Of a DNA stretch of 64,000 nucleotides, positions 22,847-59,206 are shown piece after piece. Origin of the DNA: Chamaelirium japonicum (taxonomy: Eukaryota > Streptophyta > Magnoliopsida > Liliales > Melanthiaceae); contig CANTAL010000097.1 of the NCBI GenBank assembly GCA_947650365.1, forward strand, positions 434,001-498,000, in the 5' to 3' direction. The notes under the pieces are model-generated. The model worked only from the letters and a program-made list of their open reading frames with translations. It was not told where the DNA came from and made no database searches. How positions within the stretch are numbered: position 1 is the stretch's first letter; each line of letters opens with the position of its first letter. Made by a program: the position numbers and the translations under genes.

Positions 22847-23156
22847 GGCGAACTGTGAGCGAGCTCCAGGGGGTGGGGGGGAGCTCCTTGCAAACTGGGG
22901 GCTAGCTCCTTGCGAGCTGGGGCGAACTGAGGGCGAGCTCCTTGTGTACTGGGGGCGAGCTCCTTGCGAACTGGGAGGCGGGGCGGGCTCCTCCTCGAGT
23001 AGGGAGGAGCGAGGGTGGGCTCCCAGGCGAGTTCCCCATCCTTTGGAATCCTGGGGTCTATGAGATCCATAGAAAGGGGGCGAATTGGGGGCGCACTCCG
23101 GGATCTGGGGGCGAGCTCCTTGCGAGCTGGGGGCAAGCTCTTCGCGAGCTGGCGTT
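22847..23156 (+). repeat. G-rich ~22-bp tandem repeats inside the LTR
   Basis: Degenerate repeats of the type GGGGGCGAGCTCCTTGCGA(A/G)CT occur in two clusters, about 22847-22980 and 23080-23156. Each contains a GAGCTC palindrome. A longer direct repeat brackets the first cluster: a stretch built on GGGTCTATGAGATC(T/C)ATAGA at about 22812-22849 and again at about 23043-23080, roughly 231 bp apart. Runs of four or more G on the + strand could form G-quadruplexes. Confidence 0.75.
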
Positions 23157-23437
23157 CTACCTGCACACTTGGATACAGACCCCCATATAGCCCAATGTGG
23201 ATCTCGCTCCCCGTTAAGATGATTCGGCGAGCTCACAGGGTGTTAGGAAACTAAATATTAGATCGCCGAAGTCGTGCTTGGCTTCCGCGTACAGGGGCCA
23301 CTTGCTATAACATACTTCGGGTGTAGCCTCGAGGTAGTGGAGCGGACTGAGGGTTCCAACTCTTGGACGGGCTCTTGTGCGAGCTTGACTCATGATGCAA
23401 GGTTGTCCAAGATATGGGGTTTCTGCTACCCCCAACA

Positions 23438-37007: not shown

Positions 37008-40000
37008 GAATGAATTAGAATGGATCGTGCGAATGAATTAGAATGGATCGTACGAATGAATTAGAATGGATCGTATGATTGAATTAGAATGGATCGTGCG
37101 AATGAATTAGAATGGATCGTACGAATGAATTACAATGGATAAATTCGTGCGAATGAATTAGAATGGATTGTATGAATGAATTAGATTGGATCGTATAAAT
37201 GAATTAGAATGGATCGTACGCATGAATTAGAATGAATACATTCATGGGATTGAATAAGAATGGATCTTACGAAGGAATTAGAATGGATCATGCGAATGAA
37301 TTAGAATGGATCGTACGAATGAATTAGAATGGATCGTATGAATGAATTAGAATGGTTCGTACGAATAAATTAGCATGGATCGTACGAATGAATTAGAGTG
37401 GATCGTGTGAAAGAATTAGAATGGATTGTATGAATGAATTAGAATAGATTGTGTGAATGAATTAGAATGGATCGTACAAATGAATTAGAATGGATCATGC
37501 GAATGAATTAGAATGTATACATTCGTGCGAATGAATTAGAATTGATCATATGAATGAGTAAGAATGGATCGTACGAATGAATTAGAATGGATCGTACAAA
37601 GGAATTAGAATGGATCATACGAATGAAATATAATGGGTCGTATAAAGGAATTAGAATGGATCGTATGATTGAAATAGAATGGATCGTATGAATTAGAATG
37701 GATCGTACGAATGAATTAGAATGGATCGTACGATTGAATTAGAATGGATCGTATGAAGGAATTAGAATTGATCGTACGAATGAATTAGAATGGATAAATT
37801 CGTGCGAATGAATTAGAATGGATTGTATGAATGAATTAGATTGGATCGTATAAATGAATTAGAATGGATCGTACGTATGAATTAGAATAGATACATTCAT
37901 GGGAATGAATAAGAATGGATCGTACGAAGGAATTAGAATAGATCATACGAATGAAATATAATGGGTCGTACAAAGGATTTAGAATTGATTGTATGAAGGA
38001 ATCAGAAGGGATCGTACGAAGGAATTAGAATGGATCGTACGAATGAATTAGAATGGATACATTTGTGCGAATGAATTAGAATGGATCGTACGAATGAGTA
38101 AGAATGGATCGTATGAAAGAATTAGATTGGATTGTATGAATGAATTAGAATTGATCGTGCGAATGAATTAGGATGGATCGTACGAATGAATTAGAATGGA
38201 TCGTACGAATGAATTAGAATGGATCGTATGAATGAAATAGAATGGTTCGTATGAATTAGAATGGATCGTACGAATGAAATAGAATAGATCGTACGGATGA
38301 ATTAGAATGGATACATTCGTGCTAATGAATTAGAATGGTTTGTACGAATGAATTAGAATGGATCATGCGAATGAATTAGAATGGATCGTACGAATGACTT
38401 AGAATGGATCGTATGAATGAATTAGAATGGATCGTATGAATGAATTAGAATGGATACATTCGTGTGAATGAATTAGAATGGATCGTACGAATGAATTAGA
38501 ATAGATCGTATAAATGAATTAGAATGGATCGTACGAATGAAATAGAATGAATTATACGAATGAATTAGAATGGATCGTACGAATGAATTAGAATGGATCG
38601 TGTGAAAGAATTAGAATGGATTGTATGAATGAATTAGAATAGATCGTATGAATGAATTAGAATGGATACATTCGTGCGAATGAATTAGAATGGATCGTGC
38701 GAATGAAATAGAATGGATCGTACGAATGAATTAGAATGGATCGTGCGAATGAATTAGAATGTATCGTATGAAAGAATTAGAGTGGATAGTATGAATGAAT
38801 TAGAATGGATCGTACGAATGAATTAGAATGGATCGTACGAATGAATTAGAATGGATCGTACGAATGAAATAGATTGGATCGTATGAATGAAATAGATTGG
38901 ATCGTATAAAGGAATTAGAATGGATCGTACGGATGAATTAGAATGGATACATTCATGGGAATGAATTAGAATGGATCGTACGAATGAATTAGAATGGATA
39001 CATTCGTGCGAATGAATTAGAATGGATTGTACGAATGAATTAGAATGGATCGTATGAATGAATTAGATTGGATACATTCGTGCGAATGAATTAGAATGGA
39101 TCGTACGAATGAATCAGAATGGATCGTACGAATGAGTAAGAATGGATCGTACGAATGAAATAGAATGGATCATACAAATGAATTAGAATGGATCGTGCAA
39201 ATGAATTAGAATGGATTGTATGAATGAATTAGAATGGATTAGAATGGATCATACGATTGAATTAGAATGGATCGTACGACGGAATTAGAATGGATCGTAC
39301 GAATGAATTAGAATGGATCGTACGAATGAATTAGAATGGATCGTGCGAATAAATTATAATGGATCGTATGAATGAATTAGAATGGATCGTACGAAGGAAT
39401 TTGAATGGATCATGAATGAATTAGAATGGATCGTACAAATGAATTAGAATGGATCGTACGAAGGAATTAGAATGGATTGTACAAAGGAATTAGAATGGAT
39501 CATACGAAGGAATTAGAATGGATCGTGCAAATGAATTAGAATGGATCGTACGAATGAATTAGAATGATCGTACGAATGAATTAGAATGGATCGTACGAAT
39601 GAATAAGAATGGATCGTACGAATGAATTAGAATGGATCGTGCAAATGAATTAGAATGGATTGTACGAATGAGTTAGAATAGATACATTCGTGCGAATAAA
39701 TTAGAATGGATCGTACGAATGAATTAGAATGGATTGTACGAATGAATTAGAATGGATCGTATGAATTAATTAGATTGGATCGTATGAATGAATTAGAATT
39801 GATTGTGCGAATGAGTAAGAATGGATCGTACGAAGGAATTAGATTGGATCGTATGATTGAATTAGAATGGATCGTGCGAATGAATTAGAATGGATCGTAC
39901 GAATGAATTAGAATGGATCGTATGAATGAATTAGAATGGATCGTACAAAGGAATTAGAATGGATCGTACGAATGAATTAGAATGGATCGTATGAATGAAT

Positions 40001-40697
40001 TAGAATGGATCGTACGAAGGAATTAGAATGGATCACACGAATGAATTAGAATGGATACATTCGTGCGAATGAATTAGAATGGATCATATGAATCAGTAAG
40101 AATGGATCGTACGAATGAAATAGAATGGATCGTACGAATGAATTAGAATAGATTGTGTGAATGAATTAGAATGGATCGTACGAATGAATTAGAATGGATC
40201 GTATGAATGAATTAGAATGGATCGTGCGAATGAATTAGAATGGATCGTATGAATGAATTAGAATGGATCGTGCGAATGAATTAGAATGGATCGTACGAAT
40301 GGATTAGAATGGATTGTACGAATGAATTAGAATGGATACATCCGTGCCAATGAATTAGAATGGATCGTATGAATGAATTAGATTGGATCGTATGAATGAA
40401 TTAGAATGGATCGTGCGAAGGAATTAGAATGGATCGTACGTGCGAATGAATTAGAATAGATTATACGAATGAATTAGAATGGATCGTACGAATGAATTAG
40501 AATGGATACATTCATGCAAAAGAATTAGAATGGATTTTATGAATGAATTAGAATGGATCGTGCGAATGAATTAGAATGGATCGTACGAATGAATTAGAAT
40601 GGATCGTATGAATGAGTAATAATGGATCGTGCGAATGAATTAGAATGGATCGTACGAATGAATTAGAATGGATAAATTCATGCGAATGAATTAGAAT
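37008..40697 (-). repeat. Satellite block, reverse, up to the CACTA insertion
   Basis: A 3.7-kb reverse block, the longest without a switch before the transposon. It continues as reverse after the element at 53163-53621, so the transposon split one block. Two places in it (about 37135-37265 and 37795-37910) match the joined flanks of the CACTA element: GGATAAATTC, a GTGCGAATG unit, GGATTGTATG, ATTGGATCGTATAAATG, then an ATTCATGGGA variant. These are paralogous empty sites. Confidence 0.88.
40695..40697. repeat. CACTA target-site duplication, left (AAT)
   Basis: AAT before CACTA at 40698 is matched by AAT at 53163-53165 after the terminal TAGTG. Three-bp duplications are characteristic of the CACTA superfamily. 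Joining the flanks gives GAATTAGAATGGATTATATG, an ordinary reverse satellite unit. Confidence 0.85.
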
Positions 40698-40709
40698 CAC
40701 TACAAGAAA
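40698..40709 (+). repeat. CACTA terminal inverted repeat, left
   Basis: CACTACAAGAAA. It pairs with 53151-53162 with a single mismatch at position 9. The following TTTACCGACGG corresponds to TTACCGACGG at the same distance from the right end. Confidence 0.9.
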
Positions 40710-41021
40710 TAGGGTCTTTACCGACGGATATTATTACCACCGTCGATAATAATACTCTTTTTACCGACGGTTAACATAATATCCGTCGGTATTATAACTT
40801 TAATTTTTTAAATTTTTTTTGCACATTTATTTCCGACAGTCAAATATTATTCGTCGGTAAAATGATTTATGCCGACAGTACATATATGTACCGTCGGTAC
40901 TATAGTTTATACCGACGGCTACATAAAGACCGTCGGTAAAACTAATTATACCGACGAACATTTTATGGCCGTCGGTACGATACCGACGGTAATTAAATAT
41001 CCGTCGGTAAAATTGTCCGAC

Positions 41022-41073
41022 GAAACTCAGGGTAAAAACCGAGCCTCTGGAAAAAAATGGAACCCTGAGTTTC
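41022..41073. repeat. Inverted repeat (hairpin) 1 in the 5' subterminal region
   Basis: GAAACTCAGGGT at 41022-41033 and its exact complement ACCCTGAGTTTC at 41062-41073 are separated by 28 bp. The arms extend outward with one mismatch into CCGACG / CATCGG. Confidence 0.85.
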
Positions 41074-41194
41074 ATCGGCGGTTTTTACCGACGGACTATA
41101 TATTGCCGTCGGCATAACTAATTATACCGACGGAAATAATATGTCCGTCGGTACAATACCGACGGTAATTAAATATCCGTCGGTAAAATTGTCC

Positions 41195-41254
41195 CGACGA
41201 AACTCAGGGTGAAAACCCGAGCCTCTAGAAAAAATGGAACCCTGAGTTTCGTCG
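41195..41254. repeat. Inverted repeat (hairpin) 2 in the 5' subterminal region
   Basis: CGACGAAACTCAGGGT at 41195-41210 pairs perfectly over 16 bp with ACCCTGAGTTTCGTCG at 41239-41254. It is the second copy of the hairpin at 41022-41073. The loop (GAAAACCCGAGCC...) is nearly the same in both. Confidence 0.88.
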
Positions 41255-41390
41255 CTGATTTGTACCGACGGACATTATGCTACGGTCGGTATAAAATAAT
41301 TATACCGACGGAACTTATAGTTCCGTCGGTATAAATTTATTTTTACCGACGGAGGTAAAACTGTCCGTCGGTAAAAAACCTGCCATAAAT

Positions 41391-41440
41391 TTCATTTAGC
41401 GATCCCCCCCTTCTGTTCTGTTTCGATCTAACCTCCCCGT

Positions 41441-41471
<31 letters not shown>

Positions 41472-41580
41472 AATCTCCCCCCCTCCCCGGCCTCCCTCCC
41501 CCCCTCCCCGGCCTCCCCCCCCTCCCCGTCCTCCCTCCCCTCCTCCCCGGAGCTCCCTCGGGTCGCGTCCCTCCGGCCCC

Positions 41581-41611
<31 letters not shown>

Positions 41612-41832
41612 AATCTCCCCCCCTCTCCGGCCTCCCTCCCCCCCTCCCCGGCCTCCCCCCCCTCCCCGGCCTCCCTCCCCTCCTCCCCGGAGCTCCCTCG
41701 CTTCGCGTCCCTTCGGCCGACCGATCGACCGGCGGCAAGCTCCGGCGGCAAGCTCCTCCTCCTCCTCGTGGGCTCCGGCCGGTGAGATCCTCCTCCTCCT
41801 CCTCCCCCCGGTGAGCTCCTCCTCCTCCCATG
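41391..41832 (+). promoter_or_regulatory. CT/C-rich leader (probable 5' UTR exon) of the CACTA gene
   Basis: A pyrimidine-rich stretch with (CT)n runs at about 41448-41472 and 41580-41611. Each run begins a copy of a ~130-bp direct duplication (about 41450-41579 and 41580-41708), sharing CAATCTCCCCCCC, CCGGCCTCCCTCC and CCGGAGCTCCCTCG. It ends CTCCTCCCATG at 41832, immediately followed by GTATGT, a good splice donor. I interpret it as a non-coding first exon ending in ATG; a GC-rich first exon is also a feature of En/Spm. Minus-strand open frames here are composition artefacts. Confidence 0.6.
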
Positions 41833-42395
41833 GTATGTAGATCTTAAATTATTTTTTTCCAGTATATTGCTTGCTGAACTTCCAGTATATTTTCTAAGGA
41901 GTTAGGCCTAAATACCATATTTTTATTATTGGGTATGTATAATTGTGATTAGTTTGTGGGATATGTCCAAACACCAAATAGTTGTGAGTCAAAACCATCC
42001 TTTTTTGGTACAAACATTCTATTCGGCTTTTTCTTTCAAATTTTATCATGGTTTTGGATCGGGCTAACCCAAGTCTGGCTGAAGCGGATGAGTCCTCCGT
42101 ATGATATATGTTAATGTTGAAAATTTTGGAAGGCTTAAATCGATTTTCATTTCACTTGTTGTCTTATGAAAGAAGCAATGCATTTGCTGTAGGGAAATTA
42201 AACAATTCGATGATCTAAGGGTGGTAGTTTCTACTGTTCCACAGTCTGAGTTCACAAACAGGCTCTCCACAAAAACACTTTTTGGGATCAAATTGTATCC
42301 AAACAGGCTCTTTATCTTTTTTTTGGAATTCCAGGCTTCCAAAATCCTGGAAACGGAGCGTATCCAAACATAAGTCCCACTAAAATTTTTCCGGA

Positions 42396-43346
42396 CCAAT
42401 TTACGATTCGATTCACCGATTTAGAGTCTAAGTGTTGGAAAATCATAAGTTAGCGTGTTTCGGATATGAAATAGCTAGGTTTGGATTCGATCGGATCGTC
42501 ATCGGATCGGCATCCGATAATTCGAACTTGGAATTATTCCGTATTTCAGACTTGCGAGCGGGTTCTAATTGGATATTTGACCAATTTACGCTCCGATTCA
42601 CCGATTTAGAGTCTAAGTGTTGGAAAATCATAACTTAGCGTGTTTCGGATATAAAATAGGTTTGGATTCGATCTGATCGTCATCAGATCCGCATCCGATA
42701 ATTCGAAGTTGGAATTATTCCGTATTTCGGACTTGCGAGCGGGTTCTAATTGGATATTTGACCAATTTACGATTCGATTCACCGATTTAGAATCTAAGTG
42801 TTGGAAAATCATAAGTTAGCATGTTTCGGATATGAAATAGCTAGGTTTGGATTCGATCCAATCGTCATCGGATCGGCATCCGATAATTCGAACTTGGAAT
42901 TATTCCGTATTTTGGACTTGCGAGCAAATTCTAATTGGATATTTGACCAATTTAAGCTCCGATTCACCGATTTAGAGTCTAAGTGTTGGAAAATCATAAC
43001 TTAGCGTGTTTCGGATATGAAATAGGTTTGGATTCGATCCGATCGTTATCGGATCGGCATCCGATAATTCGAAGTTGGAATTATTCCGTATATCGGACTT
43101 GCGAGCGGGTTCTAATTGGATATTTGACCAATTTACGCTCCGGTTCACCGATCTAGAGTCTAAGTGTTGGATAATCATAACTTAGCGTGTTTCGGATATG
43201 AAATTGGTTTGGATTCAATCCGATCGTCATCGGATCGGCATCCGATAATTCGAACTTGGAATTATATTCCGTATTTCGGACTTGCGAGCGGGTTCTAATT
43301 GGATATTTGACCAATTTACGATCCGATTAACCGATTTAGAGTCTAA
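42396..43346 (-). repeat. Upstream 181/185-bp tandem array (about 5 units, reverse)
   Basis: The landmark CACCGATTTAGA recurs at 42414, 42599, 42780, 42965 and 43146, with a degenerate sixth (TAACCGATTTAGA) near 43329. Spacings are 185, 181, 185, 181 and about 183 bp. The 185-bp units carry a 4-bp GCTA gain (GAAATAGCTAGG, about 42468 and 42836). The units are the reverse complement of those in the 45271-52190 array. Short open frames on both strands repeat with the unit and are not regarded as genes. Confidence 0.92.
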
Positions 43347-43506
43347 CTGTTTCATATTGTTTCATATTGTTTCATATTGCGAGCGGGTTCATATTGTTTC
43401 ATATTGTTTCATATGTAAATCATACTGTTTCATATATAAATCAAACTGTTTCATATTGTTTCATATATAAATCTTACTGTTTCATATATAAATTAAATTG
43501 TTTCAG
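43347..43506 (+). repeat. TGTTTCATAT simple repeats before the coding start
   Basis: About a dozen short repeats of TGTTTCATA(T), several followed by ATAAATC(A/T), lead to the acceptor TTTCAG at 43506. A fragment of the 181-bp unit (GCGAGCGGGTTC) is embedded near 43379, so the tract seems to have grown from the edge of the array. It is T-rich and could serve as the intron's polypyrimidine and branch region. Confidence 0.75.
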
Positions 43507-43708
43507 ATGGCATCACGGTCATATGTTCGTAGAGGCAGAGGCAGGGGTGGGGTAGCTCGGAGCGCTCCGGCTGCCACCCCAGGGTCCGAGGCTGAGCCGT
43601 CCGGATCTGGTAGTGCTGTTCCTCTCTCCACACCAGCTCCTGCTGTGGTCGCAGCCTCCGGAGCTTCGAGCAGTGCTCAGCACTCGGCTACAGCGTCTAC
43701 GCCCACAG
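43507..43708 (+). CDS. TnpA-like exon 1
   Basis: Starts ATGGCATCACGG and ends ACAG|GTAATG after 67 codons plus one base. It encodes the basic, low-complexity Ser/Ala/Pro/Gly-rich N-terminus. It is GC-rich compared with the flanking introns, which supports coding. Confidence 0.7.
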
Positions 43709-43780
43709 GTAATGTTTAGATCTAAAGTTTTATACATGTTGTAAATACTTCTTCAGTACTGATGTATATTTTATTTGCAG

Positions 43781-44016
43781 GGTCGACCAGGCACGTAGGC
43801 GACCGGGGCGTGACGACGGCCCGGCGCTTGTCGGCCTTACGCGAGCCGCTATCCCTACAGTGGAGCGGCGGGACCTTTTTGGGCGAGCACGCTTCTGACG
43901 CCGCCACGTGGGTCGGCATGATAGTACGGGAGGAGAGGAATGCCCCGATTGTGGGGTTAAGGGGGTGGAAGAACATTGATGCATCCTATAAGGAGAGGAT
44001 GTATCAGTAGTTTTTG
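43781..44016 (+). CDS. TnpA-like exon 2, contains TAG at 44008-44010
   Basis: Acceptor TTTGCAG at 43780, donor TTG|GTACGT at 44017. The reading frame gives ...SYKERMYQ, stop, FL and then joins exon 3 in phase. Using an earlier GT at 44001 would avoid the stop but would put exon 3 out of frame. The stop is therefore probably a true nonsense mutation, fitting CAG to TAG. Confidence 0.65.
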
Positions 44017-44109
44017 GTACGTTAGTTTCATTAAAGCATTTTAGAATAATATCGTACTTCTTGATAATTTGATTTGATAAAATGACTTGTTTCTAAATTG
44101 ATTTTACAG

Positions 44110-44334
44110 GAGAAATTTAAATGGGAGAACATGGAAACCGACACCCATCGGGAGGACTTGTGGAAGACGATGGGTGAGCGGTACAGGGATTACCGTCACG
44201 AGCTCTACAAGCTCTACGGTTACTTGGTCGGCCAGCCGGCTGAGGAGGTACAGGCTGCGGCCGGGACGAGAGACGCGCCACCGCTACACATTCTACAGTT
44301 TTTGGTCGCTCACTGGGCCACCCCTAGCTTTCAG
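44110..44334 (+). CDS. TnpA-like exon 3
   Basis: Acceptor TTTACAG at 44109, donor CAG|GTATAA at 44335; 75 whole codons. It holds the best family match: EKFKWEN, then EDLWKTMGERYRDYRHELYK, and ends W-A-T-P-S-F-Q. Confidence 0.75.
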
Positions 44335-44422
44335 GTATAATTATAATTTTGTTGATTCGTACTTGTTTTAATGTTATACTAAAAATTTGTATTGATGTTT
44401 CAAAATTTAATCGATTGCACAG

Positions 44423-44518
44423 AATAAATCTGCTATAGGCAAGCAGAATAGAAGTGCCTCGACGACACCTGCTCCAGTGAAGGGGAGGACCTCCATGCCC
44501 CAGCTTGCCCAGCAGCTG
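44423..44518 (+). CDS. TnpA-like exon 4
   Basis: Acceptor TTGCACAG at 44422, donor CTG|GTAAAT at 44519; 32 codons. It includes the SA(I)GKQNRS stretch, matching the S..NR motif of the family. Confidence 0.68.
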
Positions 44519-44599
44519 GTAAATGATACAAACATTGTTATTATTTAAAACTCTATACATGTTATATTAACTCATCTATTTATTTTATATGTCCAACAG

Positions 44600-44704
44600 A
44601 CACAGTCCTTGGGCCACGAGCCTAATAGGATTGACCTTTTTGAGGCCTCTAGGAGGCGGCGTATCGATGGGGCATTTCTGGACGACAGGGTTGCCTCGCA
44701 AGTG
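44600..44704 (+). CDS. TnpA-like exon 5
   Basis: Acceptor CCAACAG at 44599, donor GTG|GTAAGT at 44705; 35 codons. It encodes ...EPNRIDLFEASRRRR..G.FLDD, in line with the 'P...DLF...H....G.FVD' part of related proteins. Confidence 0.68.
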
Positions 44705-44786
44705 GTAAGTAATTAAATTACTGTTAATATATTCTTATACATATGCCATAAAATATCATTGAATATCATTGGTTGTTTTTATATAG

Positions 44787-45194
44787 GAGAGGATGCGACT
44801 TCTGGTGACCCCGTCGGGCGAGGCCGGCTCCTCCACCAGCTCAGTATCTATCGACTCAGCGATGGATACTGTGCTGAGACGTGCCACGCACGGCCGTGTC
44901 CTCTGTACGGGACTTGGAGTCACGCCCTCCTCCTACTTTGGACGAGAGGGTATGCGCTTGAGGGCACGGGACACCCAGACCGGTGCTATCACTCAGCTGC
45001 AGTCTGCGCTAGATGCAGAGCGAGAGCAGAGGCAGGCCCTCGAGCGGAGGATTGAGGCGGAGCGAGAGCAGAGGCAGGCCCTCGAGCAGAGGGTTGAGGC
45101 GGAGAAGAAGGCCCACGATGAGGAAAGAGAAGCTCGCAGGGAACTAGAGCGTCGGCTTAATCACTTCATAAGCCGGTCTAGCGGTGGCTCATGA
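44787..45194 (+). CDS. TnpA-like exon 6 (C-terminal, coiled coil)
   Basis: Acceptor TATATAG at 44786; 135 codons to TGA at 45192-45194. After a Ser-rich stretch comes GRVLCTGLGVTPSSYFG, then about 55 residues of heptad-like, charged sequence with two 13-residue repeats. A coiled coil of this kind suggests oligomerisation, as for TnpA. Confidence 0.75.
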   Translation, partial: ERMRLLVTPSGEAGSSTSSVSIDSAMDTVLRRATHGRVLCTGLGVTPSSYFGREGMRLRARDTQTGAITQLQSALDAEREQRQALERRIEAEREQRQALEQRVEAEKKAHDEEREARRELERRLNHFISRSSGGS

Positions 45195-45198
45195 TCAG

Positions 45199-48100
45199 GT
45201 ACTTACTAATCTTTATAATATTAGTAAAAAATATGAATCATACTAATTTGAGTTTAGATCATATTATCACACTTATGATTTTCCAACACTTAGATTCTAA
45301 ATCGGTGAATCGAAGCGTAAATTCTTCAAATATCCAATTAGAACCCGCTCGCAAGTCCGAAATACGGAATAATTCCAAGTTCGAATTATCGGATGCCGAT
45401 CCGATACGGATCGGATCGAATCCAAACCTATTTCATATCCGAAACACGCTAAGTTATGATTTTCCAACACTTAGATTCTAAATCGGTGAATCGGAGCGTA
45501 AACTCTTCAAATATCCAATTAGAACTCGCTTGCAAGTCCGAAATACGGAATAATTCCAAGTTCGAATTATCGGATGCCGATCCGATGACGATCGGATCGA
45601 ATCCAAACCTATTTCATATCCGAAACACGCTAAGTTATGATTTTCCAACACTTAGACTCTAAATCGGTGAAGCGGAGCGTAAATTGGTCAAATATCCAAT
45701 TAGAACCCTCTCGCAAGTCCGAAATACGGAATAATTCTAAGTTCGAATTATCGGATGCCGATCCGATGACGATCGGATCGAATCCAAACCTATTTCATAT
45801 CCGAAACACGCTAACTTATGATTTTCCAACACTTAGACTCTAAATCGGTGAATCGGAGCGTAAATTGGTCAAATATCCAATTAGAACTCGCTCGCAAGTC
45901 CGAAATATGGAATAAATCCAAGTTCGAATTATTGGAAGCCGATCCGATGACGATCCGATCGATCCAAACCTATTTCATATCCGAAACACGCTAACTTATG
46001 ATTTTCCAACACTTAGACTCTAAATCGGTGAATCGGAGCGTAAATTGGTCAAATATCCAATTAGAACCAGCTCGCAAGTCCGAAATACGAAATAATTCCA
46101 AGTTCGAATTATCGGATGCCGATCCGATGACGATCAGATCGAATCCAAACCTATTTCATATCCGAAACACGCTAACTTATGATTTTCCAACACTTAGACT
46201 CTAAATCGGTGAATCGGAGCGTAAATTGGTCAAATATCCAATTAGAACCCGCTCGCAAATCCGAAATACGGAATAATTCCAACTTCGAATTATCGGATGC
46301 CGATCCGATGACGATCGGATCGAATCCAAACCTATTTCATATCCGAAACACGCTAAGTTATGATTTTCCAACTCTTAGACTCTAAATCGCTGAATCAGAG
46401 CGTAAATTGGTCAAATATCCAATTAGAACCCGCTCGCAAGTCTGAAATACGGAATAATTCCAAGTTCAAATTATCGGATGCCGATCCGATGACGATCCGA
46501 TCGAATCTAAACCTAGCTATTTCATATTCGAAACACGCTAACTTATCATTTTCCAACACTTAGACTCTAAATCAGTGAATCGAATCATAAATTGGTCAAA
46601 TATCCAATTAGAACCCGCTCGCAAGTCCGAAATACGAAATAATTCCAACTTCGAATTATCGGATGCGGATCCGATGACGATCGGATCGAATCCAAACCTA
46701 TTTCATATCCGAAACACACTAAGTTATGATTTTCCAACACTTAGACTCTAAATCGGTGAATCGGAGCGTAAATTGGTCAAATATCCAATTAGAACCCGCT
46801 CGCAAGTCCAAAATAAGGAATAATTCCAAGTTCGAATTATCGAATGCCGATCCGATGACGATCCGATCGAATCCAAACCTATTTCATATCCGAAGCACGC
46901 TAACTTATAATTTTCCAACACTTAGACTCTAAATCGGTGAATCGGAGCGTAAATTGGTCAAATATCCAATTAGAACCCGCTCGCAAGTCCGAAATACGGA
47001 ATAATTCCAACTTCGAATTACCGGATGCCGATCCGATGATGATCGGATCGAATCCAAACCTATTTTATATCCGAAACACGCTAACTTATGATTTTCCAAC
47101 ACTTAGACTCTAAATCGGTGAATCGGAGCGTAAATTGGTCAAATATCAAATTAGAACCCGCTCGCAAGTCCAAAATATGGAATAATTCCAAGTTTGAATT
47201 ATCAGATGCCGATCCCATGATGATCCGATCGAATCCAAACCTATTTCATATCCGAAACACGCTAACTTATGATTTTCCAACACTTAGACTCTAAATCGGT
47301 GAATCGGAGCGTAAATTGGTCAAATATCCAATTAGAACCCGCTCGCAAGTCCGAAATACGGAATAATTCCAAGTTCGAATTATCGGATGCCGATCCGATG
47401 ATGATCGGATCGAATCCAAACCTATTTCATATCCGAAACACGCTAACTTATGATTTTCCAACACTTAGACTCTAAATCGGTGAATCGGAGCGTAAATTGG
47501 TCAAATATCCAATTAGAACCCGCTCGCAAGTCCGAAATACGGAATAATTCCAAGTTCGAATTATCTAATGCCGATCCGATGATGATCCGATCGAATCCAA
47601 ACCTATTTCATATCCGAAACACGCTAAGTTATGATTTTCCAACACTTAGACTCTAAATCGGTGAATCGGAGCGTAAATTGGTCAAATATCAAATTAGAAC
47701 CCGCTCGCAAGTCCGAAATACGAAATAATTCCAAGTTCAAATTATCGAATGCCGATCCGATGATGATCCGATCGAATCCAAACCTATTTCATATCCGAAA
47801 CACGCTAACTTATGATTTTCCAACACTTAGACTCTAAATCGGTGAATCGGAGCGTAAATTGGTCAAATATCAAATTAGAACCCGCTCGCAAGTCCGAAAT
47901 ACGGAATAATTGCAAGTTCGAATTATCGGATGCCGATCCGATGATGATCCGATCGAATCCAAACCTATTTCATATCCGAAACACGCTAACTTATGATTTT
48001 CCAACACTTAGACACTAAATCGGTGAATCGGAGCGTAAATTGGTCAAATATCCAATTAGAACCCGCTCGCAAGTCCGAAATACGGAATAATTCCAAGTTC

Positions 48101-51100
48101 GAATTATCGGATGCCGATCCGATGACGATCGGATCGAATCCAAACCTATTTCATATCTGAAACACGCTAAGTTATGATTATCCAACACTTAAACTCTAAA
48201 TCGGTGAATCGGAGCGTAAATTGGTCAAATATCCAATTAGAACCCGCTCGCAAGTCCGAAATACGAAATAATTCCAAGTTCGAATTATCGGATGCCGATC
48301 CGATGACGATCCGATCGAATCCAAACCTATTTCATATCCGAAACACGCTAACTTTTGATTTTCCAACACTTAGACTCTAAATTGGTGAATCGGAGCGTAA
48401 ATTGGTCAAATATCCAATTAGAACCCGCTCGCAAATCCGAAATACGGAATAATTCCAACTTCGAATTATTGGATGCCGATCCGATGACGATCGGATCGAA
48501 TCCAAACCTATTTCATATCCGAAACACGCTAAGTTATGATTTTCCAACACTTAGACTCTAAATCGGTGAATCGGAGCGTAAATTGGTCAAATATCCAATT
48601 AGAACCCGCTCGCAAGTCCGAAATACGGAATAATTCCAAGTTCGAATTATCGGATGCTGATCCGATGATGATCCGATCGAATCCAAACCTAGCTATTTCA
48701 TATCCGGAACACGCTAACTTATCATTTTCCAACACTTAGATTCTAAATCGGTGAATCGAATCGTAAATTGGTGAAATATCCAATTAGAACCCGCTCGCAA
48801 GTCCGAAATACGGAATAATTCCAACTTCGAATTATCGGATGCGGATCCGATGACGATCGGATCGAATCCAAACCTATTTCATATCCGAAACACGCTAAGT
48901 TATGATTTTCCAACACTTAGACTCTAAATCGGTGAATCGGAGCGTAAATTGGTCAAATATCCAATTAGAACCCGCTCACAAGTCCGAAATACGGAATAAT
49001 TCCAAGTTCGAATTATCGGATGCCGATCCGATGACGATCCGATCGAATCCAAACCTATTTCATATCCGAAGCACACTAACATATGATTTTCCAACACTTA
49101 GACTCTAAATCGGTGAATCGGAGCTTAAATTGGTCAAATTTCCAATTAGAACTCGCTCGCAAGTCCGAAATACAGAATAATTCCAACTTCGAATTACCGG
49201 ATGCCAATCCGATGACGATCGGATCGAATCCAAACCTATTTTATATCCGAAACACGCTAACTTATGATTTTCCAACACTTAGACTCTAAATCGGTGAATC
49301 GGAGCGTAAATTGGTCAAATATCAAATTAGAACCCGCTCGCAAGTCCGAAATACGGAATAATTCCAAGTTCGAATTATCGGATGTCGATCCCATGATGAT
49401 CCGATCGAATCCAAACCTATTTCTTATCCGAAACACGCTAACTTATGATTTTCCAACACTTAGACTCTAAATCGGTGAATCGGAGCGTAAATTGGTCAAA
49501 TATCCAATTAGAACCCACTCGCAAGTCCGAAATACGGAATAATTCCAAGTTCAAATTATCGGATGCCGATCCGATGACGATCGGATCGAATGCAAACCTA
49601 TTTCATATCCGAAACACGCTAACTTATAATTTTCCAACACTTAGACTCTAAATCGGTGAATCGGAGCGTAAATTGGTCAAATATCAAATTAGAACCCGCT
49701 CGCAAGTCCGAAATACGGAATAATTCCAAGTTCAAATTATCGGATGCCGATCCGATTATGATCCGATCGAATCCAAACCTATTTCATATCCGAAACACGC
49801 TAACTTATGATTTTCCAACACTTAGACTCTAAATGGGTGAATCGGAGCGTAAATTGGTCAAATATCAAATTAGAACCCGCTCGCAAGTCCGAAATACGGA
49901 ATAATTCCAAGTTCGAATTATCGGATGCCGATCCGATGATGATCCGATCGAATCCAAACCTATTTCATATCCGAAACACGCTAACTTATGATTTTCCAAC
50001 ACTTAGACTCTAAATCGGTGAATCGGAACGTAAATTGGTCAAATATCCAATTAGAACCCGCTCGCAAGTCCGAAATACGGAATAATTCCAAGTTCGAATT
50101 ATCGGATGCCGATCCGATGACGATCGGATCGAATCCAAACCTATTTCATATCCGAAACACGCTAACTTATGATTTTCCAACACTTAGACTCTAAATCGGT
50201 GAATCGGAGCGTAAATTGGTCAAATATCCAATTAGAACCCGCTCGCAAGTCCGAAATACGGAATAATTCCAACTTCGAATTATCGGATGCCGATCCGAAG
50301 ACGATCGGATCGAATCCAAACCTGTTTCATATCCGAAACACGCTAACTTATGATTTTCCAACACTTAGACTCTAAATCGGTGAATCGGAGCGTAAATTGG
50401 TCAAATATCAAATTAGAACCCGCTCGCAAGTCCGAAATACGGAATAATTCCAAGTTCGAATTATCAGATGCCGATCCGATGATGATCCGATCGAATCCAA
50501 ATCTATTTTATATCCGAAACACGCTAACTTATGATTTTCCAACACTTAGACTCTAAATCGGTGAATCGGAGCGTAAATTGGTCAAATATCCTATTAGAAC
50601 CCGCTCGGAAGTCCGAAATACGGAATAATTCCATGTTCGAATTATCGGATGCCGATCCGATGATGATCCGATCGAATCCAAACCTATTTCATATCCGAAA
50701 CACGCTAACTTATGATTTTCCAACACTTAGACTCTAAATCGGTGAATCGGAACGTAAATTGGTCAAATATCCAATTAGAACCCGCTCGCAAGTCCGAAAT
50801 ACGGAATACTTCCAACTTCGAATTACCGGATGCCGATCCGATGACGATCGGATCAAATCCAAACCTATTTCATATCCGAAACACGCTAACTTATGATTTT
50901 CCAACACTTAGACTCTAAATCGGTGAATCGGAGCGTAAATTGGTCAAATATCCAATTAGAACCCGCTCACAAGTCCGAAATACGGAATAATTCCAAGTTC
51001 GAATTATCGGATGCCGATCCGATGACGACCGGATCGAATCCAAACCTATTTCATATCCGAAACACGCTAACTTATGATTTTCCAACACTTAGACTCTAAA

Positions 51101-52233
51101 TCGGTGAATCGGAGCGTAAATTGGTCAAATATCAAATTAGAACCCGCTCGCAAGTCCGAAATACGGAATAATTCCAAGTTCGAATTATCGGATGCCGATC
51201 CGATGATGATCCGATCGAATCCAAACCTTTTTCATATCCGAAACACGCTAACTTCTGATTTTCCAACACTTAGACTCTAAATCGGTGAATCGGAGCGTAA
51301 ATTGGTCAAATATCAAATTAGAACTCGCTCACAAGTCCGAAATACGGAATAATTCCAAGTTCGAATTATCGGATGCCGATCCTATGAGGATCCGATCGAA
51401 TCCAAACCTATTTCATATCCGAAACACGCTAACTTATGATTTTCCAACACTTAGACTCTAAATCGGTGAATCGGAACGTAAATTGGTCAAATATCCAATT
51501 AGAACCCGCTCGCAAGTCCGAAATACGGAATAATTCCAAGTTCGAATTATCGGATGCCGATCCGATGACGATCGGATCGAATCCAAACCTATTTCATATC
51601 CGAAACACGCTAACTTATGATTTTCCAACACTTAGACTCTAAATCGGTGAATCGGAGCGTAAATTGGTCAAATATCCAATTAGAACCCGCTCGCAAGTCC
51701 GAAATACGGAATAAATCCAACTTCGAATTATTGGATGCCGATCCGATGACGATCGGATCGAATCCAAACCTATTTCATATCCGAAACACGCTAACTTATG
51801 ATTTTCTAACACTTAGACTCTAAATCGGTGAATCGGAGCGTAAATTGGTCAAATATCCAATTAGAACCCGCTCGCAAGTCCGAAATACGGAATAATTCCA
51901 AGTTCGAATTATCGAATGCCGATCCGATGACGATCCGATCGAATCCAAACCTAGCTATTTCATATCCGAAACACGCTAAGTTATGATTTTTCAACACTTA
52001 GACTCTAAATCGGTGAATCGGAGCGTAAATTGGTCAAATATCCAATTAGAACCCGCTTGCAAGTCCGAAATATGGAATAATTCCAAGTTCGAATTATCGG
52101 ATGCCGATAATTCTACGATCGGATCGAATCCAAACCTATTTCAAAACCGAAACACGCTAACTTATCATTTTTTAACGCTTAGACTCAGTTATAGATATAA
52201 ACCATCTTTTTAACAAATACATGTTAATTGCAG
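45199..52233 (+). other. Probable 3' UTR intron (7 kb) containing the downstream array
   Basis: Four bases after the stop codon, CAG|GTACTT forms a donor (GT at 45199). The next convincing acceptor after the array is TTAATTGCAG at 52233, followed by a GC-rich exon-like stretch. If used, the whole 181-bp array is intronic and lies between the stop codon and the last exon. An alternative is that transcripts end within or before the array. Confidence 0.5.
45271..52190 (+). repeat. Downstream 181/185-bp tandem array (38 units plus a partial)
   Basis: The landmark ATGATTTTCCAACACTTAG begins a unit every 181 bp from 45275 (45275, 45456, 45637, ... 51983), with a truncated unit at about 52164. Three units are 185 bp through a GCTA gain (CCTAGCTATTTC, about 46510, 48690 and 51953). 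Other unit variants are ATCCAATT/ATCAAATT, GATGACGATCGG/GATGATGATCCG and GAATCGGA(A/G)CG. Order of variants shows higher-order copies (12-unit and 4-unit periods). Orientation is opposite to the upstream array. Thirty or so units keep a 68-codon open frame overlapping the next by 26 bp, in rotating frames; I take this as a by-product of repetition. Confidence 0.95.
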
Positions 52234-52450
52234 AAGCAGGGCGGCGTCAGGGGATCGATGAGAGCACCAGCGTTGGTGGTGGGCGGGCGTGGTTGAGATA
52301 GGGCGGCGTCAGGGGATAGATGAGAGCACTGGCGTTGGTGGCGGGCGGGGGTGGTTGAGATAGGACATGTATCATCTCTCAGTTCTGGATTGTGTAAATA
52401 TTATTTTGTAATATATGGTTATTTTTTGTTCTTGTCTATAATTGTCGGCC
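52234..52450 (+). other. Probable terminal non-coding exon with a 62-bp duplication
   Basis: A GC-rich stretch begins after the acceptor at 52233. Two nearly identical 62-bp units, each starting GGGCGGCGTCAGGGGAT, lie at 52239-52300 and 52301-52362. The sequence then becomes AT-rich (GTAAATATTATTTTGTAATAT), where polyadenylation could occur; no exact AATAAA is seen nearby. No credible open frame is present. Confidence 0.45.
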
Positions 52451-52615
52451 AGGAACTGTGGTAATATTTGATAATTTGCTGTAATTTTTTATCAATTTAG
52501 GTAAAATTTTAAAATTTGCGGTAATATCTTATAAATTATGGTAATATATTGTAGTATTGAATCACAGGAATTAATTAACATTATTTAGGTAAATTTATTA
52601 AAAAAAAAACATACT
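52451..52615. other. AT-rich spacer before the 3' subterminal region
   Basis: Contains loose repeats of GGTAATAT and an A9 run at about 52602-52610. No gene or RNA is recognised. Confidence 0.5.
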
Positions 52616-53150
52616 TATTACCGACGGAAATTAATTATTCCATCGGTAATAATATTTTTATTTTTTTTAAATTATTAATAATGTGCCGACGGCATATAAT
52701 ATCCGTCGGTAATATATATATTATTACCGACGGGTAATATATATATGCATCGGTAATAGATATAGTATTACCGACGGTTATATAAATTTTGTCGGTAATA
52801 TATATATTATTACCGACGGGTAATATATATGTGTCGGTAATATATATAGTATTACCGACAGGATAGATTATACCCGTCGGTAAAATGGTTATATATTACC
52901 GACGTATTATTATGTTTCGTCGGTAATACTATATTATATTAGTTTTTAATTGATTAAATATTACCGACGGCTTTAATATTACCGTCGGTATTAATTATTA
53001 TTACCGACGGTAATAATTAGTCCGTCGTATTGTTTTCCCCGACGCCTTCTTTCCCGACAGCCAGCGACGGAAATATCTTCCGTCGCTATAGAACATTACC
53101 GACGGAATTTTAATATTACCGACGGATATTGTCCGTCGGTAATAACTATT
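52616..53150 (-). promoter_or_regulatory. 3' subterminal repeat region of the CACTA element
   Basis: TTACCGACGG and CCGTCGGTAA motifs alternate with ATATATAT spacers, many as facing pairs. Several copies are degraded (CATCGGT, TGTCGGT, CCGACAGG). Spacing and motif match the 5' subterminal region, supporting one intact element. Confidence 0.85.
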
Positions 53151-53162
53151 TTTTTTGTAGTG
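53151..53162 (-). repeat. CACTA terminal inverted repeat, right
   Basis: Reads TTTTTTTGTAGTG at the end of the element; the complement CACTACAAAAAA matches the left end with one mismatch in 12. Confidence 0.9.
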
Positions 53163-53165
53163 AAT
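53163..53165. repeat. CACTA target-site duplication, right (AAT)
   Basis: Matches AAT at 40695-40697. The satellite continues in reverse orientation from here. Confidence 0.85.
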
Positions 53166-55379
53166 GGATTATATGAATGAATTAGATTGGATCGTATAAA
53201 TGAATTAGAATGAATCGTACGTATGAATTAGAATGGATACATTCATGGGATTGAATAAGAATGGATCGTATGAATGAATTAGAATGGATCGTACGAATGA
53301 ATTAGAATGGATACATTCGTGCTAAAGAATTAGAATGGATTGTATGAATGAATTAGAATAGATCGTATGAAGGAATTAGAATGGATCGTACGAAGGAATT
53401 AGAATGGATCGTACAAAGGAATTAGAATGGATCATACAAATGAAATAGAATGGATCGTACGAATGAATTAGAATGGATCGTGCGAATGAATTAGAATGGA
53501 TCGTACGAATGAATTAGATTAGATTCTGCGAACGAATTAGAATGGATCGTACGAATGAATTAGAATGGATCGTACGAATGAAGAAGCATCGTATGAATGA
53601 ATTAGAGTGGATACATTTGAATGATCCATTCTAATTCATTCGTACGATCCATTCTATTTCATTCGTACGATCCATTCTAATTCATTCGCACGAATGAATC
53701 CATTCTAATTCATTCGTACAATCCATTCTATTTCATTCATACGATCCATTCTTACTCATTCGTATGATCCATTCTAATTCATTCACACGAATGTATCTAT
53801 TCTAATTCATTCGTATGATCCATTCTAATTCATTCAAACAATCCTTTCTAATTCATTCATACAATCGATTCTAATTCATTCGCACGAATTTATCCATTCT
53901 AATTCATACGTACGATCCATTCTAATTCATTCGCACAATCTATTCTAATTCATTCGTACGTTTCGCACAATCTATTCTAATTCATTCATAAGATCCATTC
54001 TAATTCATTCTAATTCGTTCATACGATCCATTCTAATTCATTCATACGATCCATTCTAATTCATTTGCACGATCCATTCTAATTCATTCATACGATCCAA
54101 TCTAATTCATTCATACGATCCATTCTAATTCATTCGTATGTATCCATTCTAATTCATTCGTACGATCCATTCTAATTCATTCGTACGATCCATTCTAATT
54201 CATTCGCACGATCCATTCTAATTCATTCGCACAATCTATTCTAATTCATTCATACGAACCATTCTAATTCATTCGCACGACCCATTCTAATTCATTCATA
54301 CGATCCATTCTAATTCATTCGTATGATCCATTCTAATTCCTTCGTACGATCCATTCTTATTCATTTGCACAATCAATTCTAATTCTTTCACACGCACGAA
54401 TACATTCGTACGATCCATTCTAATTCATTCGTAGGAATTAGAATGGATCATACGAATGAAATAGAATAGATCGTAATCTAATTCATTCATACGATCCATT
54501 CAAATTCATTCGCACAATCTATTCTAATTCATTCGTACGATCCATTCTAATTCATTCGTACGATCCATTCTAATTCATAAGTATGATCCATTCCATTCTA
54601 ATTCATTCGCATCCATTCTAATTCCTTTATACGAATTATTCTAATTCATTCGCACGAATGTATCCATTCTAATTCATTCGCACGATCCATTCTAATTCAT
54701 TCGTACGATCCATTCTAATTCATTCATACGATCCATTCTAATTCTTTCTTACGAATGTATCCATTCTAATTAATTCGTACGTTCCATTCTAATTCATTCG
54801 CACGAATGTATCCATTCTAATTCATTCGTACGATCTATTCTAATTCATTCGCACAATCTATTCTAATTCATTCGCACGATCCATTCTAATTCATTAATAC
54901 GATCCATTCTAATTCATTAATACGATACATTCTAATTCATTCGTACGACGCACGATCCATTCTAATTCATTCATACGATCCAATCTAATTCATTCATACG
55001 ATCCATTCTAATTCATTCGAATGTATCCATTCTAATTCTTTCATTGGATCCATTCTAATTCATTCATACGATCCATTCTAATTCATTCGCACGATCCATT
55101 CTAATTCATTAATACGATCCATTCTAATTCATTCGTACGACGCACGATCCATTCTAATTCATTCATACGATCCAATCTAATTCATTCATACGATCCATTC
55201 TAATTGATTCGTATGTATCCATTATAATTCATTCATACGATCCATTCTAATTCATTCGCACGATCCATTCTAATTCATTCGCACGATCCATATTAATTTA
55301 TTCACACGATACATTCTAATTCATTCGTACGATCCATTCTAATTCATTCGCACGATCCATTCTAATTCATTCATACATG
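53163..55379. repeat. Satellite after the CACTA element
   Basis: Reverse 53163-53621 (continuation of the split block), forward 53622-54431, reverse 54432-54475 (about two units), forward 54476-55379. A ~192-bp tandem duplication is marked by the odd join CGTACGACGCACGATCC at about 54942 and 55134. Confidence 0.87.
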
Positions 55380-58300
55380 TACGAATGAATTAGAATGGAT
55401 ATATTCGTGCGAATGAAATAGAATAGATTGTACGAATGAATTAGAATGGATCGTACGAATAAATTAGAATGGATCGTGTGAAAGAATTAGAATGGATCGT
55501 TCGAATGAATTAGAATTCATACGTACAAATTCATACGTACGATCCATTCTAATTCATTCGCACGAATGTATCCATTCTAATTCATGCGTACGATCCATTC
55601 TAATTCCTTTGTACGATCCATTCTAGTTCCTTCGTACGATCCATTCCATACGACCTATTCTATGTCATTCGTACGATCCTTTCTTACTCAATCGTATGAT
55701 CCATTCTAATTCATTCGAACGAATGTATCCATTCTAATTCATTCGCACAATCCATTCTAATTCATTCGCACGAATGTATCCATTCTAATTCCTTTGCACG
55801 ATCCATTCTAATTCATTCATACGATCCAATCTAATTCATTCATTCGATCCATTCTAATTCTTTCACACGATTGTATCCATTCTAATTCATTCGAATGATC
55901 CATTCTAATTCATTAGCATGAAAAAACACGATCCACTCTAATTCATTCATACAATCCATTCTAATTCATTCATACAATCCATTCTAATTCTTTCACACGA
56001 TCCATTCTAATTCATTCATACGATCCATTCTAATTCACTCGTATGATCCATTCTAATTCATTCGTACAATCCATTCTATTTCATTCGTACGATCCATTCT
56101 TACTCATTCGTACGATCCATTCTAATTCATTCGCACGAATTTATCCATTCTTATTCATTCATACGATCCATTCTAATTCATTCGTACGATCCATTCTAAT
56201 TCCTTCGTACGATCCATTCTAATTCCTTCGTACGATCCATTCTAGAATCATTCGTATGATCCATTCTAATTCATTCATGCGATCCATTCTTATTCATTCC
56301 CGTGAATGTATCTATTCTAATTCATACGTACGATCCATTCTAATTCATTTATATGATCCAATCTAATTCATTCATACACACGATTCATTCTAGAGTGGAT
56401 ACATTCGTACGAATGAATTAGAATGGATCATACAAATGAATCGTATGAATGAATTAGAATGGATCGTGCGAATGAATTAGAGTTGATACATTCGTGCGAA
56501 TGAATTAGAATGGATCGTACGAATGAGTAAGAATGGATCGTTCGAATGAGTAAGAATGGATCGTACGAAGGAATTAGAATGGATCGTACGAATGAATTAG
56601 AATGGATCGTATGAATGAATTAGAATGGATCGTACGAATGAATTAGAATGGATCGTACGAATGAATTAGAATGGATAAATTCGTGCGAATGAATTAGAAT
56701 GGATCGTATGAATGAATTAGAATGGATCATGCGAATGAATTAGAATAGATTGTGTGAATGAATTAGAATGGTGCGAATGAATTAGAATGGATCGAGCGAA
56801 TGAATTAGAATGGATCGTACGAATGAATTAGAATGGATCGCGTACAATCCATTCTATTTCATTTATCCATTCTAATTCATTAGTACGATCCATTCTATTT
56901 CATTCGTACGATCCATTCTTACTCACTCGTATGATCCATTCTAATTCATTTGTACGATCCATTCTAATTCATTCGTACGATCCATTCTAATTCATTCGCA
57001 CGATCCATTCTAATTCATTCATACAATCCATTCTAATTCTTTCATACGATCCATTCTAATTCATTCATACGATCCAATCTAATTCATTCGTACAATCCAT
57101 TCTATTTCATTCATATGATCCATTCTAATTCCTTCGTACGATCCATTCTAATTCATTCAGACAATCCATTCTAATTCATTCGTACGATCTATTCTAATTC
57201 ATTCGTACGATCCATTCTAATTCATTCATACGATCCATTCTAATTCATTCGTATGATCCATTCTAATTCATTTGCACGATCCATTCTAATTCATTCATAC
57301 GATCCATTCTATTTCATTCGTACGATCCATTCTCGCACGATCAATTCTAATTCATTAATACGATCCATTCTTACTCATTCGTACGATCCATTCTAATTCA
57401 TTCGTACGATCCATTCTAATTCATTAATACGATCCAATCTAATTCATTCATACGATCCATTCTAATTCCTTCGTACGATCCATTCTAATTCTTTCACACG
57501 ATCCATTCTAATTCATTCGTATGATCCATTCTAATTCATTCGCACGATCCATTCTAATTCATTCATACGATCCATTCTATTGCATTCGTACGATCCATTC
57601 TAATTCATTCGCACAATCCATTCAAATTCATTAATACGATCCATTCTAATTCATTCGTACGACACACGATCCATTCTAATTCATTCATACGATCCAATCT
57701 AATTTATTCATACGATCCATTCTAATTCCTTCGTACGATCCATTCTAATTCATTCATACGATCCATTCTAATTCATTCGTACGATCCATTCTAATTCATT
57801 CATACGATCCATTCTAATTCATTCGTACGATCCATTCTAATTCATAAGTACGATCCATTCTAATTCATAAGTACGATCCTTTCTTACTCAATCGTATGAT
57901 CCATTCTAATTCATTCGAACGAATGTATCCATTCTAATTCATTCGCACAATCCATTCTAATTCATTCGCACGAATGTATCCATTCTAATTGCTTCGCACG
58001 ATCCATTCTAATTCATTCATACGATCCAATCTAATTCATTCATACGATCCATTCTAATTCTTTCGCACGTATGTATCCATTCTAATTCATTCGTACGATC
58101 CATTCTAATTCATTAGCACGAAAAAACACGATCCACTCTAATTCATTCATACGATCCATTCTAATTCATTCATACAATCCATTCTAATTCTTTGACACGA
58201 TCCATTCTAATTCATTCATACGATCCATTCTATTTCATTCGTATGATCCATTCTAACTCATTCGTACAATCCATTCTATTTCATTCGTACGATCCATTCT

Positions 58301-59206
58301 TACTCATTCGTACGATCCATTAAAATTCATTCGCACGAATGTATCATTCTTATTCATTCATACGATCCATTCTAATTCATTCGTACGATCCATTCTAATT
58401 CATTCGTACGATCCATTCTAATTCCTTCGTACGATCCATTCTAATTTCATTCGTAAGATCCATTCTAATTCTTCGTACGATCCATTCTTATTCATTCCCA
58501 TGAATGTATCCATTCTAATTCATATGTACGATCCATTCTAATTCATTTATACGATCCATTCTAATTCATTCGCACGATCAATTCTAATTCATTCATACAA
58601 TCCATTCTAATTCTTTCACACGATCCATTCTAATTCATTCATACGATCCAATCTAATTCATTCGTACAATCCATTCTATTTCATTCGTATGATCCATTCT
58701 AATTCCTTCGTACGATCCATTCTAATTCATTCATACGATCCATTCTAATTTATTCGTACGATCTATTCTAATTCATTCGTACGATCCATTCTAATTCATT
58801 CATACGATCCATTCTAATTCATTTGTATGATCCATTCTAATTCATTCACACGATCCATTCTAATTCATTCGTACGATCCATTCTATTCCATTCTCGCACG
58901 ATCAATTAGAATGTAACCATTCTAATTCATTCATACGATTCATTCTATTTCATTCATACGATCCATTCTAATTCATTCGCACGAATGTACAATCTATTCT
59001 AATTCATTCATACGATCCATTCTAATTCATTCGCACGAATGTATCCATTCTAATTCATTCGTACGATCCATTCTAATTCCTTCGTACAAATGTATCCACT
59101 CTAATTCATTCGTACGATCCATTCTAGTTCATTCACACGATCCATTCTAATTCATTCGCACGAATGTATCCATTCTAATTCATTCGTACGATCCATTCTA
59201 ATTCAT
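55380..59206. repeat. Satellite with a ~2.2-kb-offset segmental duplication
   Basis: Reverse 55380-55514, forward 55515-56390, reverse 56391-56840, forward 56841-59206 with a very short inverted patch near 58906-58916. About 55670-56340 and 57870-58545 share rare markers in order: CTCAATCGTATG, CATTCGAACGAATG and the A6 run (55921-55926 / 58121-58126). About 57000-57330 resembles 58565-58890. The reverse block 56391-56840 has no counterpart in the second copy. Confidence 0.8.

Follow-up and report, generated by a model that had tools for sequence, protein, structure and literature searches.

Opposed arrays of a 181-bp satellite flank the TnpA gene in a CACTA transposon family of Chamaelirium japonicum

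Introduction

The maize transposon En/Spm encodes TnpD and TnpA in one element. The same two genes lie together in Tpn1 of Ipomoea, whose tandem repeats of 122 and 104 bp are subterminal (PMC5105172), and in the family of CACTA (En/Spm-type) transposons described here, which we studied starting from one copy in the plant Chamaelirium japonicum. That copy lies within a 64,000-nucleotide stretch of genomic DNA (the window; assembly GCA_947650365.1, contig CANTAL010000097.1, positions 434,001 to 498,000 of the forward strand, with all coordinates below counted from its first letter), and its TnpA-like gene is bracketed by two opposed arrays of the same 181-bp repeat, a reverse array (R) upstream and a forward array (F) downstream. 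The accessible part of the Tpn1 report mentions no opposed internal arrays, unlike the present family (PMC5105172).

Each component of this arrangement has a described counterpart. Jozin, a 16.5-kb CACTA element of Chenopodium quinoa, carries 32.5 copies of a 171-bp monomer near its 3' end (PMC8978399). Going by its description, the place and scale of that satellite are like those of F, but the excerpted text describes a single array, close to the 3' end, with no mention of a partner in reverse, and the monomer measures 171 rather than 181 bp. Opposed tandem repeats on both sides of a middle domain are described for foldback transposons such as Tetris of Drosophila virilis, in which the repeats amplify (PMC4079207). 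The foldback arrays form the terminal inverted repeats, whereas those of the window element are internal, on the two sides of TnpA and inside ordinary CACTA ends, and a foldback identity was rejected for that reason. Mu killer of maize is an inverted duplication in a transposon derivative, and its hairpin RNA is proposed to silence MuDR (PMC3440606). The present family shares with it an inverted duplication able to give a long hairpin, and one copy, L037, also has an inverted TnpA dimer. In contrast, Mu killer duplicates part of the transposase gene plus a terminal inverted repeat region, while here only a non-coding repeat is inverted and it is inherited by hundreds of copies; the arms consist of the 181-bp repeat only and share neither the ends nor a coding part of a target.

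An internal CACTA satellite, foldback opposed arrays and transposon hairpins are thus already known, and in the open-licence literature, as far as its texts were available, we found no CACTA element that combines internal opposed arrays around TnpA with a matching reverse-less subfamily. Whether long inverted repeats in transposon genes set off silencing or back-splicing has been approached through individual rearranged loci, Mu killer among them. In the genome of C. japonicum, young copies with paired arrays and young copies lacking them each number in the hundreds, with the same TnpA start and the same F junction. Because both forms occur in such numbers, the question of double-stranded RNA (dsRNA) and silencing becomes directly testable.

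Results

The first-pass annotation had placed about five reverse units upstream and 38 forward units downstream of TnpA-like exons, and Tandem Repeats Finder and an inverted-repeat search both confirm this. The inverted-repeat search pairs R with F over stretches of up to 790 nt at 95-96% complementarity (for example 42476-43265 with 48268-49057, 790 nt, 96% complementary), and the 25 longest of the 510 inverted pairs in 40000-54000 all join R to F. Opposed pairing of this kind is far beyond chance. In the window, 92% of the sequence in full R units is covered by 24-mers perfectly complementary to F; the figure for nine sister elements is 90-99%, and across these ten copies the longest perfect complementary stretch between R and F measures 104-284 nt.

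Both arrays belong to one CACTA element spanning 40698 to 53162, as had been proposed. Its ends, CACTACAAGAAA at 40698 and the inverse end CACTACAAAAAA at 53162, are identical over their first 8 bases and form terminal inverted repeats starting with CACTA, as the CACTA (En/Spm) superfamily requires; a target duplication of AAT (40695-40697 and 53163-53165) flanks them. The short subterminal repeats ACCGACGG and CCGTCGGT occur in both orientations in 30 exact copies, 19 at the 5' end and 11 at the 3' end, with zero exact copies between the two end regions and, in the arrays, none even when one mismatch is allowed. Together with TnpA in the window and TnpD in a full-length sister (C8), the ends, the 3-bp duplication and the subterminal repeats place the element in this superfamily.

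The coding exons 1-6 reported between the arrays are borne out as well. Six TnpA-like exons with GT/AG joints amount to 424 codons with a single in-frame TAG at 44008; the protein after this stop matches PF03004 Transposase_24 (E = 3e-16), and the part before it matched no Pfam family. The earlier picture needs correction in that TnpD is missing from the element, the stop codon interrupts the TnpA frame and R is a truncated version of the array in its sisters. The exon joints are conserved in 29-32 of 32 TnpA copies, the donor word GGTACTTAC just past the TnpA stop codon in 31 of 32, and the acceptor TTGCAG in the tail in 11 of 11. With splice signals this conserved, both arrays can be placed in predicted introns flanking the TnpA exons. 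An Rfam scan of 40600-53300 gave zero structured-RNA matches at gathering score.

The same layout recurs across the source genome (1.52 Gb in 3,253 contigs). About 31 sister loci were among the matches listed, and ten regions were analysed as a first sample; a second sample drew on the 40 best exon 6 matches (20 stretches covering 21 of these places; another 7 were the window or belonged to the first sample). Within these samples, both selected by likeness to the window element, paired arrays stand at 29 of 30 sister loci, 10/10 in the first (the reverse array of C2_85 being cut by the edge of the examined stretch) and 19/20 in the second, and genome-wide the joint of R into the lead that precedes TnpA occurs 592 times. 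A search for sisters with the same layout, as the first-pass annotation had suggested, was therefore successful. F lies between TnpA and the 3' end of the element in all ten array regions examined, an observation that bears on whether the repeat might be a free genomic satellite captured by the transposon. F ranges from 21 to 54 regular units in 11 elements, and R on contig C1 ranges from 580 to 3654 bp (nine pairs). L048 is without R, and a fragment of one unit persists at its joint.

Extension of the upstream DNA of three sisters revealed longer elements, with the exact 5' end word in two of them, C8 (14.3 kb, full length) and C1_106 (16.4 kb). Upstream, C8 encodes a TnpD-type transposase (PF02992 Transposase_21, E=6e-102, plus Transpos_assoc, DUF4218 and DUF4216), and the single frame tested in C1_106 matches DUF4216. 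The order in C8 is 5' end, TnpD, lead, R array, lead, TnpA, F array, tail and 3' end, with R lying between TnpD and TnpA. Among ten sisters, the exact 5' end word is also present in C8, C1_106 and C12_65 and the 3' word in all ten; the 3-bp target site duplications are AAT in the window and C12_65, GAG in C8 and AAC in C1_106. At >90% identity the window element matches C8 only from 42394 onward, within the stretch compared, and matches C12_65 over 40698-42392 as well, limits from which the window element and C12_65 are read as TnpD-less forms. Judged by these alignments, the window copy has additionally lost a stretch that includes the left part of R. What is left is a truncated version of the R of its sisters, and its four full units share the length pattern of the last four in C8 (185, 181, 185, 181).

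Over 449 units from 11 elements (R from 10 of them), the consensus sequences of R and F are equal in every column. Identity between R and F within an element is 0.945-0.963, compared with 0.954-0.970 between F units, a figure lifted slightly by the inclusion of self-pairs. An element's own F is the closest source of its R in two of ten elements, by a small margin in C12_65 and clearly in C1_69. In C1_69, the 19 R units match the element's own F in inverted order at a constant index sum of 23; divergence is 1.4% in this register, whereas 16 other offsets give 4.3-5.0%. Units of variant length (185, 170, 180 and 185) stand in register (one of the 19 pairs is unequal, 181 vs 180), and the two members of the 170-bp pair are identical, with the same 11-bp gap and four departures from the majority in common. 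Forward unit 14 has 170 bp in C1_69 and 181 in C1_106, C10 and C2_85, from whose forward units the same units of C1_69 differ by 1.6-2.5%; further 170-bp units, with differing gap columns, occur in R of C10, C12_34 and C1_104 and in F of C1_104. The match of R and F in inverted register shows that sequence has passed between the opposed arrays. The R of C1_69 is an inverted, in-register copy of its own F, most simply made within its lineage, and documents clearly that sequence can be exchanged between the two sides of an inversion within a single mobile element. This pattern would fit conversion or template switching in the course of repair, for instance after excision. For the window copy, recent mutual correction was rejected, its own F ranking 8 of 11 as a source of its R.

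Junction patterns counted over the whole genome, for which reversed-pattern controls gave 0, separate two forms. The joint from the last TnpA stretch into F was found 1084 times with up to one mismatch, and with up to two mismatches the exon 1 start was found 957 times, the right joint of R (R into lead) 592 times, its left joint (left lead into R) 558 times and a marker of the reverse-less spacer 498 times; as the tolerances differ between patterns, little weight should be put on the near equality of 592 plus 498 with 1084. On these counts there appear to be two large subfamilies, F being present in both and R in one. The paired layout is not universal, since 498 copies have the reverse-less marker, and by these junction counts about 40-46% of copies are of the other form or without the R marker.

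Contig C1 shows the two forms at closer range. Among 92 exact exon 1 starts listed there, 48 come with an exact right R joint and 8 more with an exact left one; four of the 44 starts without an exact right joint were inspected (201 bp each), and three proved to be without R, the other having R with a different joint. In the three reverse-less copies TnpD ends about 250 bp before exon 1, and the spacer is common to all of them. Below 117.6 Mb on this contig, the exact reverse-less marker occurs 20 times; in 18 cases an F joint follows 1.5-2.6 kb downstream, and in none does an exact R joint lie within 6 kb. For 100 exact F joints in that part of the contig, the upstream marker is an exact right R joint in 42, a left R joint only in 10 and the reverse-less spacer in 18, with no exact marker in 30; conversely, 11 of 53 exact R joints have no exact F joint downstream.

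The copies differ little from one another. Across 32 TnpA copies, mean divergence is 1.7% in exons (1.9, 1.5 and 1.9% at the three codon positions), 1.8% in introns and 1.9% over the aligned region, and an open TnpA frame is retained in 18, two of them with in-frame length changes. Divergence this low is better matched by a young burst than by prolonged purifying selection on the copies, and in a young family conservation of the layout tells little about function. Selection for the layout was rejected, given that the window-like samples are biased, the family is young and the other form is abundant.

One copy carries a second inversion. In L037 (C1:89256001-89264000) two TnpA genes face each other across a junction of F and R, and the array beyond the second gene extends for at least 2.3 kb. 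A recent duplication was rejected because the difference of 1.6% between the two TnpA genes is close to the average for the family. With its Mu killer-like layout, this inverted TnpA dimer could give dsRNA of the coding exons themselves.

Table 1. Features of the CACTA element in the window
Feature	Position	Strand	Remarks
Complete CACTA (En/Spm-type) element, TnpD-less derivative	40698..53162	+	CACTACAAGAAA end and its inverse; target duplication AAT
5' terminal and subterminal region	40698..41390	+	ACCGACGG x10, CCGTCGGT x9
Predicted 5' untranslated exon, GC-rich	41391..41832	+	predicted donor GTATGT at 41833; splicing presumed
Predicted first intron	41833..43506	+	contains reverse array
Reverse array (R), 5.2 units of 181/185 bp	42394..43351	-	Tandem Repeats Finder, period 181; left end is the deletion joint
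Lead	43352..43506	+	TTTCATAT-rich minisatellite and fragment of 181-bp unit, between R and TnpA
TnpA-like gene, six exons	43507..45194	+	43507-43708, 43781-44016, 44110-44334, 44423-44518, 44600-44704, 44787-45194
Predicted last intron	45199..52233	+	contains forward array; donor CAG/GTACTTAC four exon bases past the stop codon; acceptor TTGCAG
Forward array (F), 38 units of 181 bp (three of 185, one of 180)	45271..52186	+	Tandem Repeats Finder, 38.1 copies
Tail, predicted 3' untranslated exon	52234..52620	+	holds 62-bp duplication
3' subterminal and terminal region	52621..53162	+	ACCGACGG x7, CCGTCGGT x4

Discussion

With a probability of roughly 0.6, we propose that a CACTA family already bearing a satellite at one point acquired an inverted copy of that satellite, and that dsRNA is a possible by-product of this gain. 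The ancestral TnpD-TnpA element would have carried a single array, F, downstream of TnpA in the apparent last intron. Later, R would have arisen in one lineage as an inverted block within the short TnpD-TnpA spacer, with F as its most likely source and inverted-repeat recombination or template switching during repair as the most likely route, a possible cause of the consensus that the arrays have in common. The R-bearing lineage would then have reached about 600 copies through ordinary transposition, and its arrays would lengthen and shorten by unequal exchange, with occasional copying from one to the other across the inversion. If one precursor RNA contained both arrays, the two introns could pair through R and F into dsRNA that leaves the TnpA exons as a loop, and small interfering RNAs (siRNAs) or altered splicing would be plausible by-products of that pairing.

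Several observations weigh against this history. The polarity of R, judged within one family of one genome, is not proven: the reverse-less spacer, known from three copies of 201 bp each, could be a deletion product, and in L048 R has been reduced to a remnant. C1_69 is the one sister in which inverted copying is clear, and own F is closest to R in just two of ten elements and eighth of 11 in the window. Even in C1_69, R differs from the same-register forward units of C1_106, C10 and C2_85 by 2.0-2.7%, and with R this close to the F of three relatives, the copying is perhaps only a little younger than their split. Splicing and transcription of the element are predictions.

The strongest competitor reverses the order of events, with R ancestral and the roughly 500 reverse-less copies forming a deletion subfamily that was later amplified. 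Loss of R is clearly possible, as L048 retains only a fragment of one unit, and repeats in the spacer favour deletion of R. The one spacer common to three reverse-less copies fits a single deletion as well as it fits a state before R. However, F occurs with both forms, and in 29 of 32 rows R has one and the same right joint, substitutions allowed, as expected of a single founding event. We consider loss unlikely on balance, though it deserves serious attention.

Whether the paired arrays do anything is a separate matter. The first-pass annotation suggested that a transcript spanning both would fold into long dsRNA, which could feed siRNA production and self-silencing or favour circular RNA. 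The first part is structurally possible, because the arrays are complementary and both lie in predicted introns, and a precursor RNA spanning R and F could form long dsRNA; self-silencing and circular RNA are conjecture. The RNA interpretation as a whole is possible, unproven and unnecessary for explaining the anatomy.

Under one such proposal, the hairpin formed by the arrays would be a source of siRNAs that silence the element itself, as an automatic brake. The near-complete cover of R by perfect 24-mers in ten copies (90-99% of full units, with perfect stretches of 104-284 nt) and the position of both arrays within predicted introns of the same gene speak for it, and Mu killer, a transposon locus with an inverted duplication, silences MuDR in maize (PMC3440606). 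However, the double-stranded part would contain neither the terminal motif nor coding sequence. Since the motif is absent from the arrays, siRNAs made from them would be directed against the arrays themselves and not against exons or ends, and self-silencing would need a spread of marks from the arrays. Copies with R are also no fewer than reverse-less copies (592 vs 498), so R has not visibly stopped their spread. A brake of this kind appears improbable.

A more elaborate idea makes the self-inverted intronic satellite a built-in dsRNA module that tunes TnpA/TnpD output and is kept complementary by mutual copying, with the two subfamilies, one carrying R and the other lacking it, serving as a natural experiment on self-regulation; we regard it as a long shot. 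Slightly longer still are the odds on intron-intron pairing promoting back-splicing, to yield circular RNA of the TnpA exons or a changed ratio of TnpA to TnpD splicing. The arrays are opposed in predicted introns flanking coding exons and most splice signals are conserved, but a narrow open-licence literature search on circular RNA and CACTA elements in plants found no precedent. Finally, use of the arrays as extra TnpA binding sites is very improbable and was rejected: internal tandem repeats of the foldback-like element Galileo contain transposase sites (PMC4079207), but ACCGACGG and CCGTCGGT, presumably the TnpA sites by analogy with En/Spm, are absent from both arrays and present in 30 exact copies at the ends.

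Other features of the family and its surroundings

The 5' parts of the sisters vary more than their TnpA halves. C8 and C1_106 are 69% alike over the first 1.4 kb (L029/L017 and L031/L023), and the window and C8 are 82% alike over 0.7 kb at the 5' end, with TnpA halves 97-98% alike; on these comparisons, the 5' parts look as if swapped. In C12_65, the stretch that replaces most of TnpD holds a predicted tRNA-Ser(AGA) gene on the minus strand (L013 1798-1878), probably a captured host fragment.

The window element is inserted in a 23-bp satellite, which makes up nearly all of both flanks (1-40697 and 53163-64000) and flips strand repeatedly, with 708 forward and 597 reverse exact core matches in the window and 50 runs of at least five. 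A GC-richer insert in this satellite at 22251-23437, with TG...CA ends and GATCG on both sides, was read by eye as a solo long terminal repeat. The window element (40695-40697) and C12_65 (L013 34-36) are inserted at the same satellite word, with TAGAAT before and AATGGA after. Their downstream flanks look different, at 80% over 168 aligned of 300 bases in an uncontrolled comparison, which tentatively speaks against one insertion that was later duplicated, and a target preference of the TnpD-less elements for this word is possible from the two cases at hand.

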